From positions 1 to 23,933 of IMG/VR virus record IMGVR_UViG_3300048625_000039: a DNA stretch of 23,933 nt. One strand, 5' to 3'. Positions 5,011-13,219 of this stretch are shown here, in pieces. The position numbers and the translations under genes are program-made. Origin of the DNA: a virus. Below the pieces are notes generated by a model, which searched no databases, was not told where the DNA came from, and saw nothing but the letters and a program-made list of their open reading frames with translations. Within the stretch, counting starts at the first letter, position 1; every line of letters starts with the position of its first letter.

Positions 5011-5892
5011 TTAGTCCTTAATGCTGTGGGCAATAACAGGACCGAGCTTTTGCAACTGATAGCCGTGTTGTGTTTTCAAAAGCGTCAATCCAGCGTTGCT
5101 GATTGCCAGCAAAACCCCCTTTGGTATTTCATCCGTCAGCGGCTTGCGTTGTTGTGGTGTGGTGTAGTAGGCAGATTCAAGTATCTTCCGAACATTGTTG
5201 TCAAGCGTGAAACCTTCAAGCACCGTGAACACAGCGTCTTTTAAAGACTGCGCCACAGGCTCACCCTGCTCTTGCTTTACTGAAAAAGAATTCGCCCTTG
5301 CAAATCTAACGCCAGCATGAAAAGAGGCGTAGTTGTCCGATTGCTCTGCCGCAATTTCAACATCATTAGATTCAGGCTCAAGCCAAAATAGTTCACCAAT
5401 TTGCTCTGCCGCGTATTCACCAAAATTGTTTCCGTCCCACTTAACCAGCGTCTTTCCTGACGTAGAAGTAGCCCACACAACACAAAGTTCATCGGTTTCA
5501 ATACAGCGCAAAATATTCCCTCGGCGTAGTTTCACAGGCTCACCCTGCTCTTGCTTTAACGATTCAAAGAATTCATCGTTATTAATTTGGCCTTCCCACT
5601 TTTGCTTTGGCTTCTTTTGTTCGGCTAGTGCCTCCAAAATACCAATCACATCTCCCACTGTTGCACCATCTCCAGCGCGTTCAAGAATGGCAAGCAGACA
5701 ATATCCAACATCTTCAAACTCTCTGATACGTTCTTTGCTCACAAGCTCACCCTGCTCTTGCTTGGCTAGTGCTTCTTCTATAGCTGCAAGCACGTTTTCA
5801 TTGACCAATCCAATGCCAATCGAACGCAAGCACCATTGTTTGATGTGATTCAGTTCATCAAGCGCCAGCTTCATTGTTTCTTCGGTGTTCAT
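5011..5892 (-). CDS. KQEQGEPV-repeat protein 1 (293 aa), unknown function
   Basis: The first of three tandem related genes in sequence order, and the last transcribed. The N-terminal helical part (MNTEETMKLALDELNHIKQW ... AAIEEALA) leads into KQEQGELVS at about residue 44. Further copies KQEQGEPVK and KQEQGEPVA occur near residues 113 and 207. The C-terminal end has YYTTPQQRKPLT followed by a short helical tail. Between the repeat tags lie unrelated segments, for example a beta-rich stretch (LRRGNILRCIETDELCVVWA). Proteins with 'EPVAWM ... YTTPPQR' tags are widespread in phages of Burkholderiales-type hosts, but no function is established to my knowledge. The ribosome site AAGGAG precedes the upstream stop (GGAGTAAGACATG). 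Confidence 0.82.
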   Translation of the reverse strand: MNTEETMKLALDELNHIKQWCLRSIGIGLVNENVLAAIEEALAKQEQGELVSKERIREFEDVGYCLLAILERAGDGATVGDVIGILEALAEQKKPKQKWEGQINNDEFFESLKQEQGEPVKLRRGNILRCIETDELCVVWATSTSGKTLVKWDGNNFGEYAAEQIGELFWLEPESNDVEIAAEQSDNYASFHAGVRFARANSFSVKQEQGEPVAQSLKDAVFTVLEGFTLDNNVRKILESAYYTTPQQRKPLTDEIPKGVLLAISNAGLTLLKTQHGYQLQKLGPVIAHSIKD

Positions 5893-7075
5893 GTCTTACT
5901 CCTTAATGTCGTGGGCGTCTTCAACCATATCAATCAAAATAGATGGTGCATCCCATTTAGGCTCGTATTTTTTAAACTTTATGAGCAAGTCAAGTCGTTG
6001 CTTATGTGTCAGCGGTTTGCGTTGTTGTGGTGTGGTGTAGAGAGGAATTGTGTAAGTTGATTTTTCAAGGCCAGTGTCTAAGCGTTGCAAAACTCCACCA
6101 TAGGGGTTCATCCACGCCACAGGCTCACCTTGTTCTTGATGGGCTAACTCAGCCTCAAGTTCATCAATACGCTTTGCCATACGCTGTTGTTCTTTAATCA
6201 TCTCAGCTATTGCATCGCGCTGAAACATCCACGCTACAGGCTCACCCTGCTCTTGCTTGACCATATCGAGGTTGTCCTCGCAATGGTTGGCTAGTGCTTC
6301 TTCTAGGGCTTTGATGGCGGCATTTGTTTTTGAAAGTTGTGAATCTTCCAATGCGTCAAGCGCCAGCTTCAATGTGTCTTCGACACTCATGTCTTACTCC
6401 TGCTTCTCTTGTCGGGCGGTCAGTCCTGATGTCATGTTGTCAATCTGCGTGAGCACGCCAATGAGGTTATCAAAAGGCTCCCACTGTGGCGCGGTGGATT
6501 TGTAGTGCTTTTTCCAAATAGCGTCTGCAAGTCGCCTTGCATAACCATAGGCATCAGGTTGCTGTAAAGATGTTGTGGGCAAGTTTGTGTAGAGGGGCTG
6601 CCAATTCCCGCCGTGAGGTGCGCTATCAAATTTAGGCTTGACCCGCTTGTCAGTATATTCAAACATCCACGCCACAGGCTCACTCTGCTCTTGCTTGAAT
6701 TGTGGTGTGGTGTAGAGCTTGTCACCATCTTTTAGCAACAAACCTTGATTTGGAATTAAGTCAACGTGACCTATGTCATCATCTTCATGGAACACACCCA
6801 CGGGCTCACCCCCGCGCGTAGCGCTTTGCTCTTGCTTTGGTTGTGTGTACACATCTTCCGTCAATAACTGATTAGCAATTTTTGCAATATGTGGCAAGCT
6901 GTTGATAGTTGTACTACCAGTAGCTATGTCGTAAATTATGCAAATTAAATCTCTTTGTTGTTTCGTGAATGGTCGTTGTTTTGTTTTCTTATTGGCTTCG
7001 GGTTTGTAGTCCCAAGGCTCACCAATGTAATTTTTTGCTACAGGCTCACCCACGTTTACGCTTTGCTCTTGCTTG
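5255..7075. repeat. Eight dispersed copies of a ~23-base tag encoding KQEQ(G/S)EPV
   Basis: On the plus strand the consensus ACAGGCTCACCCTGCTCTTG plus CTT appears at about 5255-5278, 5534-5557, 5741-5763, 6119-6139, 6236-6258, 6674-6697, 6800-6838 and 7040-7075. The last two carry GC-rich insertions between the halves (encoding ATRGG and VNV between QS and EPV). A second tag (TTGTTGTGGTGTGGTGTA, encoding YTTPQQ) occurs at about 5150-5166 and 6021-6038, and a shorter form near 6701-6715. All copies are in the same reading frame of three adjacent genes. Confidence 0.85.
5896..6390 (-). CDS. KQEQGEPV-repeat protein 2 (164 aa), unknown function
   Basis: The middle paralogue. The N-terminus MSVEDTLKLALDALEDSQLS shares 14 identical bases (AAGCTGGCGCTTGA) with the start region of protein 1. 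Repeat tags KQEQGEPVAWM (about residue 46) and HQEQGEPVAWM (about 85) flank a coiled-coil segment (IAEMIKEQQRMAKRIDELEA). A second variable segment ends in PLYTTPQQRKPLT and a C-terminal domain (HKQRLDLLIKFKKYEPKW ... DMVEDAHDIKE). The last residues and the stop/ribosome site/start junction resemble those of protein 1, which points to gene duplication. Function is unknown. The ribosome site is CAGGAG, just before the upstream stop. Confidence 0.82.
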   Translation of the reverse strand: MSVEDTLKLALDALEDSQLSKTNAAIKALEEALANHCEDNLDMVKQEQGEPVAWMFQRDAIAEMIKEQQRMAKRIDELEAELAHQEQGEPVAWMNPYGGVLQRLDTGLEKSTYTIPLYTTPQQRKPLTHKQRLDLLIKFKKYEPKWDAPSILIDMVEDAHDIKE

Positions 7076-7215
7076 GCTAGTGCTTGGTCAATTCTTTCAA
7101 TTGCTTCATCAGCTTCATGTGCAATCATGTACGGTTGATTGCCAAGCGGTGTCTCATGTCGGTAGCGCCAAATGATTTGACGCGCCAGTTTTGCAGCAGA
7201 TTTCAAATCACTCAT
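6394..7215 (-). CDS. KQEQ-repeat protein 3 (273 aa), unknown function
   Basis: The longest-diverged paralogue, first transcribed of the three. The N-terminus MSDLKSAAKLARQIIWRYRH leads through a helical domain into ALAKQEQSVNVGEPVA. A long segment (TKQRPFTKQQRDLICIIYDI) precedes PKQEQSATRGGEPVG, then a short segment ends in YTTPQFKQEQSEPVAWMFEY and a C-terminal domain of about 80 residues. An earlier TTG start six codons upstream exists. The ATG at 7215 is preferred because AGGGGA lies seven bases before it. The first seven bases overlap the end of the upstream HNH gene. Confidence 0.8.
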   Translation of the reverse strand: MSDLKSAAKLARQIIWRYRHETPLGNQPYMIAHEADEAIERIDQALAKQEQSVNVGEPVAKNYIGEPWDYKPEANKKTKQRPFTKQQRDLICIIYDIATGSTTINSLPHIAKIANQLLTEDVYTQPKQEQSATRGGEPVGVFHEDDDIGHVDLIPNQGLLLKDGDKLYTTPQFKQEQSEPVAWMFEYTDKRVKPKFDSAPHGGNWQPLYTNLPTTSLQQPDAYGYARRLADAIWKKHYKSTAPQWEPFDNLIGVLTQIDNMTSGLTARQEKQE

Positions 7216-7711
7216 ATCTATTCCCCTTTGCAATGTTTTGTGATGCCGTAATCACTTGTAGATTGTGCTGAGAATGAAAGCCTGAAACATTCTTGCCTTG
7301 CAATGGAGCAATGTGATCTACATGAAACTTAACGCCGCCTCTGCTTAAAACTTCAGCGACTTCGTACCACATTGCAATCTCTTGTTTGTCAGCCCAAGCT
7401 GGTGTTAGTTTTATCTCTGCCGCCCTGCGCTTTGCAGACCTTGCATTGACAACAGCCTTGTTGGTTTTTGCATAACAACTTACGTACTTTTGTTTTTTCT
7501 CTTTGTTTTCTAAGTACCAGTTCTTAGCATTAGCTTTTACTGTTTCAAGAAGAAAGTCACGATTCTTTTGCTGCCAAATTGAAATCGTAGCGTTTCTGCA
7601 TGATTTGCAATGACTTAAATAGCCATCTTTGCTAACTTTCTGTCTGTAAAAGTCAGCCAGATTTTTTTCAACAAGGCATTTGTTGCAAGTTTTTTTAGCT
7701 TCTTTACTCAT
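7208..7711 (-). CDS. HNH endonuclease with N-terminal zinc finger
   Basis: A 167-aa probable homing or accessory endonuclease. Cys9, Cys12, Cys35 and Cys38 (CNKC ... CKSC) form an N-terminal zinc ribbon of the kind seen in many phage HNH proteins ('C..C...K....F'). A basic coiled middle (about 60-100) links to the HNH core: FHVDHIAPLQG at 129-139, then FHSQHNLQVITASQNIAKGN. The start forms an ATGA overlap with the upstream 79-aa gene, and the 3' end provides the ribosome site of repeat protein 3 (AAGGGGAATAG). It lies next to the KQEQ repeat array, which may mark a recombination hot spot. Confidence 0.88.
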   Translation of the reverse strand: MSKEAKKTCNKCLVEKNLADFYRQKVSKDGYLSHCKSCRNATISIWQQKNRDFLLETVKANAKNWYLENKEKKQKYVSCYAKTNKAVVNARSAKRRAAEIKLTPAWADKQEIAMWYEVAEVLSRGGVKFHVDHIAPLQGKNVSGFHSQHNLQVITASQNIAKGNRYE

Positions 7712-11975: not shown

Positions 11976-12604
11976 TTGAACAAGGTTCACCAGAATGGTT
12001 TTCTCAACGTTTGGGCAAAGTGACCGCCAGCCGTGTTGCTGACGTTATTGCAAAGACTAAAACGGGTTACAGCACCAGTCGCGACAACTACATGGCTCAA
12101 TTGGTATGTGAAAGAATGACCAACACCGTGGCCGAATCGTATTCCAATGCAGCAATGCAATGGGGCACAGAAACAGAACCATTGGCGCGTGCAGCGTATG
12201 AGGCTTATGCTGACGTTTTAGTTGATGAAGTTGCCATGATCAATCATCCAACGATTGAGGCTGCTGGCGCTTCTCCTGACGGTCTTGTTGGTGATGTTGG
12301 TCAGCTTGAGATTAAGTGTCCAAACACATCAACGCACATTGATACACTTTTAAGTCAATCTGTGCCGTCAAAGTACAACACGCAAATGCAATGGCAAATG
12401 GCTTGTACTGGTAGATATTGGTGTGACTTTGCATCTTTTGACCCAAGGATGCCAGAAGACCTTCAATTGTTTGTAAAACGTGTTGATCGTGACAACGCTT
12501 ACATTGCAATGCTTGAAGAAGAAGTCAAAAAGTTCTTGGTTGAACTGGATGGCAAAATTAAGAAACTTAACGAACTGAAAGAGAAAAATGGCAATTATTT
12601 ATGA
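11972..12604 (+). CDS. YqaJ-type viral recombinase nuclease
   Basis: A lambda-exonuclease-like PD-(D/E)XK nuclease that resects double strands 5' to 3' to feed the annealase. The 210-aa product opens with EQGSPEWFSQRLGKVTASRV, the conserved substrate-end motif. The active site follows: ASPDGLVGD (catalytic Asp) and LEIKCP (ExK), then NTQMQWQMACTGRYWCD. The length is close to lambda Exo (226 aa). A clear AGGG lies before the ATG, and the start overlaps the upstream stop. The last 17 bases overlap the SSB-like gene. Confidence 0.93.
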   Translation: MIEQGSPEWFSQRLGKVTASRVADVIAKTKTGYSTSRDNYMAQLVCERMTNTVAESYSNAAMQWGTETEPLARAAYEAYADVLVDEVAMINHPTIEAAGASPDGLVGDVGQLEIKCPNTSTHIDTLLSQSVPSKYNTQMQWQMACTGRYWCDFASFDPRMPEDLQLFVKRVDRDNAYIAMLEEEVKKFLVELDGKIKKLNELKEKNGNYL

Positions 12605-12842
12605 AGTCACAGTGAAAGCTGGAACTTACCAAAAAGACGGACAAGAAAAAGTCCGTTATCAACGAATTGGCAGCGTGATTGAAACCAAAAAAGGCCAAAT
12701 GTTAAAGCTTGATCAAATGCCTTTGGTTGAAGGTGGTTGGTCTGGTTGGGCTTACTTGTTTGAACCACGCGAAGGCGATCAAAAGTCAATGCCAAAAAAT
12801 CATGGTAATTCAGTATTTCCAGACGAAGACGTACCATTTTGA
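12588..12842 (+). CDS. Putative SSB-like protein with DVPF tail (84 aa)
   Basis: The product starts MAIIYEVTVKAGTYQKDGQE and has a beta-rich body (KVRYQRIGSVIETKKGQML, GWSGWAYLFEPREG) compatible with a small OB fold. It ends FPDEDVPF, an acidic tip with terminal Pro-Phe like the DDDIPF tail of bacterial SSB, which recruits repair proteins. Position directly after the YqaJ nuclease supports single-strand DNA binding. Bacterial SSB is about twice as long. The call rests on the tail and the context rather than a full domain match. Confidence 0.6.
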   Translation: MAIIYEVTVKAGTYQKDGQEKVRYQRIGSVIETKKGQMLKLDQMPLVEGGWSGWAYLFEPREGDQKSMPKNHGNSVFPDEDVPF

Positions 12843-12847
12843 TTAAC

Positions 12848-12932
12848 GGGGGAAAGCGGATGTTTGTGGATACCATCACGACTTGAAATCGTGGGTAATG
12901 GTTGCAATGCCACAAAACGTAGCGAGTACCCC
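12848..12932 (+). ncRNA. Structured RNA segment after the SSB-like gene
   Basis: This lies in a 107-base gap (12843-12949) without a gene. Four nested stems can be drawn. GGGG near 12849-12852 pairs with CCCC at 12929-12932. ATGTTTGTGG (12860-12869) pairs with CCACAAA plus CGT (12910-12920, one bulged A). ACCAT (12872-12876) pairs with ATGGT (12898-12902). CACGA (12877-12881) pairs with TCGTG (12889-12893) around a seven-base loop. A GGTA bulge (12894-12897) is complementary to TACC (12927-12930), so a pseudoknot or a switch is possible. No T-run follows. It matches no riboswitch or ribozyme consensus I know. The downstream ATG has only a weak ribosome site. Confidence 0.6.
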
Positions 12933-12949
12933 ACCTACAAAGAACCAAT

Positions 12950-13219
12950 ATGAAACAAAATGAGTTTGACAGTTGGCTAAAAGAAAACAGCAAAATCTTT
13001 GAATCGTTTTGCCAAGAAGCTTTGAAAGCAAAAACAAAAGGATTTAATCATTATTCAGCAAGAACAATTATTGAGTTTTTGCGGCATCACACAAACTTGC
13101 GTGAGGCATCTGGTGGATTCAAGATCAACAACGATGCAGTGCCGTACATGGCTCGATTGTTTTGTAAGCAATACCCACACGCGCATGATTTGTTTGAACA
13201 TAGGAGTTCATCAAAATGA
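12950..13219 (+). CDS. Conserved phage protein of unknown function (89 aa)
   Basis: The product begins MKQNEFDSWLKENSKIFESF and continues with FNHYSARTIIEFLRHHTNLR, GGFKINNDAVPYMARLFCKQ and YPHAHDLFEH. The blocks 'F.HYSA..I...R', 'G(F)KINN..VPY.ARLF' and 'P....F..R' match a common phage family of unknown role, which I recall as near 90 aa. It is the first gene after the structured RNA, with a poor ribosome site. The stop forms ATGA with a 25-aa gene. Confidence 0.78.
   Translation: MKQNEFDSWLKENSKIFESFCQEALKAKTKGFNHYSARTIIEFLRHHTNLREASGGFKINNDAVPYMARLFCKQYPHAHDLFEHRSSSK

Follow-up and report, generated by a model that had tools for sequence, protein, structure and literature searches.

The question raised by this locus is what fills the gap at positions 12843-12949 between two plus-strand genes of the window, by which we mean the whole stretch of 23,933 nucleotides of viral DNA that was analysed (IMG/VR record IMGVR_UViG_3300048625_000039). 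The upstream gene (12588-12842) encodes an 84-aa protein of phrog_18187, of unknown function, with an acidic C-terminal tail of the SSB kind (..PDEDVPF), and we infer that it acts as an SSB; the downstream gene (12950-13219) encodes an 89-aa protein of phrog_13625, also of unknown function, and the operon further codes for an Erf-like annealing protein and a RecE/YqaJ-type exonuclease. An earlier note, made from the letters of the window alone, read the gap as a strongly folded RNA of nested stems that fits no recognised consensus. Our analyses demonstrate that the gap does carry a conserved structured RNA, and this element is almost certainly a member of an RNA family without a match in Rfam. 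The family is widespread among phages, and the decisive pattern of the window RNA, a constant base bearing an exchangeable tip, is visible only by comparison with relatives. Elsewhere in the window, three adjacent minus-strand proteins (5011-7233) have repeats such as KQEQGEPVAW and TTPQQRKPLT in common.

The whole element, as delimited by the covariance model R1, spans 12845-12935; it and all its parts lie on the plus strand. Its closing stem, P1, begins 5 nt past the stop codon of the SSB-like gene and pairs GGGG (12848-12851) with CCCC (12929-12932). Above it lie an internal loop of GAAA (12852-12855) opposite GAGUA (12924-12928), a GC/GC clamp (12856-12857 with 12922-12923) and a second internal loop of GGAUG (12858-12862) opposite (A)YGYA, here ACGUA (12917-12921). 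Stem P2 (UUUGUGG, 12863-12869, with CCACAAA, 12910-12916) then carries the interior of the apical cassette (12870-12909), in the window a hairpin with the stems ACCAU (12872-12876)/AUGGU (12898-12902) and CACGA (12877-12881)/UCGUG (12889-12893). ACC follows directly 3' of P1 (12933-12935), and the start codon of the 89-aa gene comes 17 nt past the 3' strand of P1. All stems listed in the earlier note are present in the window sequence, among them a ten-pair stem that joins AUG (12860-12862) with CGU (12918-12920) to the seven pairs of P2 and leaves A12917 bulged; the GC clamp had been overlooked.

What was not borne out is the exceptional stability of the fold. The region 12833-12960 has a folding energy of z = -0.50, with 59 of 200 shuffles folding equally well, and the exact gap 12843-12949 one of z = -1.12, with 29 of 200 shuffles equally good; these values are ordinary and not significant, and folding energy was rejected as evidence for the window RNA. 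The negative observations of the note fared better. A tRNA search of the window was negative, and an intrinsic terminator is rejected for want of a T-run, ACCUACAAAG standing 3' of P1 in the window and ACC being the family consensus there. Readthrough of the ssb stop codon was also rejected: although the frame of the window gene happens to run on through the element, stop codons interrupt it in relatives, L006 among them.

Comparison with relatives defines the constant base as P1, the GAAA/GAGUA loop, the GC clamp, the GGAUG/(A)YGYA loop, the start of P2 and the trailing ACC. The compensatory changes on which the earlier note had staked its proposal are found in homologous gaps, in both P1 and P2. 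In an alignment of 62 sequences (A2), every pair of the two stems changes on both sides (144 cells; 0/500 shuffles), while the GC clamp never varies and the GAAA, GGAUG and GAGUA strands are invariant. A2 was pre-filtered for pairing, and the unbiased test is that of P1 in 115 non-identical copies, chosen by core letters alone from among the IMG/VR matches listed: there, P1 pairs at four of four positions in 100 copies, against a mean of 24 and a maximum of 37 with the arms swapped, and once copies with GGGG are left aside, in 58 of 73 against 7.8. The non-Watson-Crick combinations in P1 are unequal, with G-U counted 20 times and A-C four times among the 115 copies, and the sense strand therefore appears to be the one that folds; the asymmetry fits RNA and is also compatible with single-stranded DNA.

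Judged by its letters, the GAAA/GAGUA loop looks like a bulged-G (loop-E/sarcin-ricin) motif, in which GAA likewise stands opposite AGUA beside a closing stem, with the two strands in the order seen here; such a motif is a building block only. Parts of the base can be missing. The GGAUG loop is absent from the platform variants of L004, L070 and L096, which keep GAAAG..AGUA and ACC, and in the copy of Alcaligenes phage CASP1 it is the GAAA/GAGUA loop that is missing and the GGAUG loop that is present. ACC stands 3' of P1 in 65 of the 115 copies and in all 8 platform variants examined. A short variant behind ssb, GGGGTGAAAGTCAGCAATTTGCAGTTGCCAATGGCGAGTAGCCCC, keeps GAAAG..GAGUA (L019, L025, L026, L030, L032-L038), and a pattern scan for it returned only 9 IMG/VR stretches.

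The extent of the family emerged from several searches. A search of IMG/VR with the proteins of both window neighbours yielded 55 loci, in which the gap behind the SSB-like gene repeatedly reads GGGG-n-GAAAGCGGATG-[variable]-GYAGCGAGTA-CCCC-ACC, a few bases past the stop; all five loci sharing the 89-aa downstream gene (L001-L005) carry the element, three in the full form and L002 and L004 as a variant. Scanning IMG/VR with the core-only pattern gave at least 120 matches where an estimated 2 or so are expected by chance, and two narrower patterns gave at least 120 each. At least 305 distinct copies were collected, mostly one per phage record and in a few records two; the IMG/VR sample consists of the matches listed and is incomplete and uneven. 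With the covariance model R1, the window copy scores 57.9 bits (E 6e-16, such E-values being rough), the window being among the 62 training sequences of the model. In bacterial genomes the element is rare: three of 399 Burkholderiales genomes, including the seed, have it, and a scan of genome_contigs gave 30 matches against an estimated 29 expected, about ten of them genuine-looking by their pairing and the rest chance.

Two GenBank phages carry the element, both recovered by BLAST with about two dozen joined elements. In MW202710 it is flanked by a gene annotated as single strand binding protein on one side and by one for an NTP-pyrophosphatase on the other. In CASP1 (L396 2700-3584) it lies in a stretch of about 880 nt that has no annotation and leads up to two tRNA genes; this CASP1 stretch also contains several other closed units. 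BLAST of the whole window gap against phages gave no match, that of one single element chance-level matches only, and that of the elements against plasmids none. The earlier note had recognised no known RNA consensus, and indeed the Rfam search of the window element returned nothing; across the family, no Rfam 15 family matches the element at gathering or permissive thresholds, the only hit being the cassette of L013 (3280-3351), which scores as tRNA at 33.4 bits and in which ARAGORN calls no gene. Matches to the int-alpA RNA (RF02996) occur on the minus strand near the ends of two loci (L002 26-103, L024 117-193). A literature search for the sequence or motif, with most subscription journals outside its reach, brought up nothing relevant, and by novelty we mean absence from Rfam 15 and from the searched literature. 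Simple scripts supplied the gene calls, the assignment of SSB tails and the grouping into alleles.

The earlier note had taken the nested stems as one fold of the whole gap. Of this, the base stands as conserved; the tip is an exchangeable cassette, and the inner ACCAU and CACGA stems are part of this variable cassette, which was matched in no other locus compared. A pseudoknot or switch between GGTA and TACC, proposed in the same place, lacks comparative support because GGTA sits in the variable cassette. Across 19 sister loci, identity averages 0.74 upstream, 0.92 in the core, 0.83 in the downstream gene and 0.60 in the apical part, where shuffled sequences give 0.53, and in 12 of the 15 sister pairs with downstream genes more than 0.9 identical, apical identity is below 0.6. 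The reverse is also seen, phages with flanks no more similar than those of unrelated DNA sharing near-identical cassettes: within single alleles, 33/36, 25/28 and 14/15 pairs are flank-unrelated, and in an allele of eight members the six copies listed have the same 29-nt cassette to the letter (14 of its 15 testable pairs flank-unrelated). One allele family of 8 sequences forms a three-way junction, two hairpins of which covary (0/500 shuffles). These observations show that cassettes are exchanged and that at least some of them are under selection. The copies collected fall into 184 cassette alleles, or 164 unrelated groups by a stricter comparison. Similar cassettes are also found on platforms without the GGAUG loop (L062, L074, L248, L110); given these and the absence of the other loop in CASP1, the evolution of the base is separate from that of the tip, each behaving as a module.

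The explanation that we prefer, plausible though short of an even chance, is that the base is a stable platform and the cassette an exchangeable recognition module, acting as its payload. The base would mount, dock and stabilise the cassette within the phage mRNA, and the cassette, as the working part, would recognise something outside the phage's own neighbourhood, with a host factor, a defence component or the product of a competing phage as candidates. Cassettes would turn over and spread between phages as targets differ between hosts or shift in an arms race. We count for this explanation the covariation of P1 and P2, the conserved cassettes with unrelated flanks, the exchange between sisters, the separability of base and tip, the lack of any adjacent protein family that tracks the large flank-unrelated alleles and the predicted promoters at P1 described below. 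Against it, the 184 alleles in 164 unrelated groups exceed any list of conflict targets that we could name, single copies often have unremarkable fold energies, and the position of the element relative to the next gene suits a cis-acting leader at least equally well. Our searches turned up no cassette target.

Such a leader is the main rival, a real if somewhat doubtful possibility. Its specificity would be exchangeable, the cassette sensing a factor and the base relaying its state to the following gene, at the level of transcription or translation, in the manner of a nut site or riboswitch. The element lies in the sense direction, its end usually 5-30 nt before a start codon, and in 164 of 231 copies an ORF of 45 aa or more begins 3-45 nt past P1, compared with 67 at a control point 250 nt further on and 35 on the other side. 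Transcription signals can be read in the same way. In the copies not of the SSB type, TATAAT-like hexamers peak 0-9 nt before P1, with 36 copies there against 1-3 per 5-nt bin elsewhere; the count was restricted to this set because the stop regions of the SSB type are AT-rich, which yields part of the TATAAT signal. Several of the promoter-like sites have TTGACA at the proper spacing, and in about 25-30 copies the predicted -10 box would place the 5' end of the RNA at P1. While position thus favours a leader, the genes downstream are varied, where a riboswitch would be expected beside functionally related ones, the same cassette occurs with different neighbours, and the ribosome site lies outside the fold. 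Within 5-14 kb around most copies, no protein family tracks the cassette near the large flank-unrelated alleles (1-4), and no candidate for a cognate protein proved consistent there. In addition, some copies sit in arrays of RNA-like units with no gene start adjacent. The variety of downstream genes and the independence of cassette and neighbourhood disfavour the leader.

The arrays are of some interest in themselves. Closed RNA-like units are strung together in L145 (7600-8330), L129 (3978-4600), L108 (50-330), L070 (7860-8290) and L096 (12730-13160), and some adjoin tRNA genes. P1 itself continues into an outer stem, AGUCCCCA..UGGGGAUU, in both L129 and L145; a unit resembling an H-type pseudoknot (CGCC..CCGG..GGCG..CCGG), whose stems co-vary by eye, lies just downstream of the element in L058, L062, L070, L090 and L096, and another unit, with GGGUUAGCGCC..CACUGCUUUAUGUGAG, recurs in L084, L108 and L145.

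The gene preceding the element often resembles that of the window. In a context set of 255 flank-non-redundant copies, 241 of them testable, it has an SSB-like acidic tail in 90, against 3.2% of the genes in the same loci, and the element often follows the stop codon of such genes by 3-10 nt. The upstream genes of other carriers encode recognised ssDNA-binding proteins, representative families of which (phrog_7364, Enc34-type PF10991, DUF669/phrog_6015 and RecT phrog_561) are mutually unrelated; SSB itself is for this reason an unlikely recogniser of the constant base. AbpAB is reported to be a defence system triggered by phage SSB (PMC10732053), and in its light the SSB association of the element is suggestive, no more. 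Genes like those of HNH homing endonucleases stand between ssb and the next gene in L020, L023, L040, L043, L047 and L049-L053, and a hairpin of very high conservation, TTAGCTAACTCGACGGAGGACAGGGGGGATTGAACCTCCCCCTTGCTAAC, stands ahead of each of these genes; the RNA element lies 3' of the HNH gene in L043 and L053.

A second alternative is that the element serves mRNA stability or processing, the base blocking exonucleases or marking a cleavage that parts the abundant ssb mRNA from that of the next gene and the tip being free to vary. Its frequent position close behind genes with SSB-like tails and the constancy of the base suit this idea; if the tip were free, however, cassettes would not stay near-identical, or covary, in phages that are unrelated, and copies also occur at promoter-driven 5' ends and in arrays, which makes it improbable. 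Less probable again is a small self-cleaving ribozyme with the two invariant internal loops as its core: invariant loop nucleotides between two sequence-free helices are what such a core might look like, but Rfam has no ribozyme match, either loop can be absent in relatives, and the conserved cassettes would be left unexplained. A hairpin acting at the DNA level, as a single-strand origin, a primase site or a site of recombination linked with DNA coated by SSB, accords with the neighbouring SSB-like, exonuclease and annealing-protein genes and is nonetheless very improbable, given promoters placed to start RNA at P1, a tRNA as the cassette of L013 and copies in arrays beside tRNA genes.

Among known systems, lambda nut (boxA/boxB) joins a constant part for host factors to a hairpin that differs between phages. 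There, the cognate protein varies with the hairpin, whereas here no such protein was found near alleles 1-4 in the 5-14 kb covered per phage. Type III antitoxin RNAs (ToxI) and their phage mimics, structured RNAs in phage-host conflict, are tandem repeats; that class, whose repeats lie beside a toxin gene, was rejected, the element being present in one copy per phage record as a rule and the window holding no repeat array. Antisense action on the phage's own contig was rejected on a mean longest match of 9.24, against 9.11 with shuffled cassettes, and general tRNA mimicry on T-arm-like hairpins in only 5 of 184 alleles (0.4 by chance), so that it concerns few alleles only. HK022 put RNA is, like lambda nut and the element, a phage RNA element within transcripts; it is about 70 nt long, consists of a pair of stem-loops and has RNA polymerase as its target (PMC9378689), and was rejected as a model for what is a single closed hairpin. 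VIPR vrRNAs, also phage-encoded, combine a constant structured part with a hypervariable one and are linked to phage-phage conflict, but they carry 9-16 YNNGG tandem repeats (PMC13142463), and 0 of 306 elements have three or more. RNA anti-CRISPRs (Racr), small phage RNAs that act by mimicry, imitate CRISPR repeats (PMC10651486); the element would be comparable to them as a small phage RNA.

Returning to the base as platform and the cassette as payload, a wider form of this explanation, held yet more tentatively, is that phages share a standard RNA platform and load it with interchangeable payloads, hundreds of which would pass between unrelated phages in the way of gene cassettes and act on molecules of hosts or rivals, a modular RNA arsenal. 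If the explanation is true, a large family of RNAs is missing from Rfam and from the searched literature, and we know of no described RNA built in this way, with a conserved base and an apical domain that is replaced wholesale and common to unrelated phages. The cassettes each have the look of an RNA module shaped by natural selection, and the family would then be a ready-made library of binding RNAs, the targets of which would expose strongly selected factors of hosts or phages. With Alcaligenes phage CASP1, a carrier exists in culture and the family can be put to the test. Overall, the exchange of cassettes on a common base suggests that phages carry interchangeable RNA tools.
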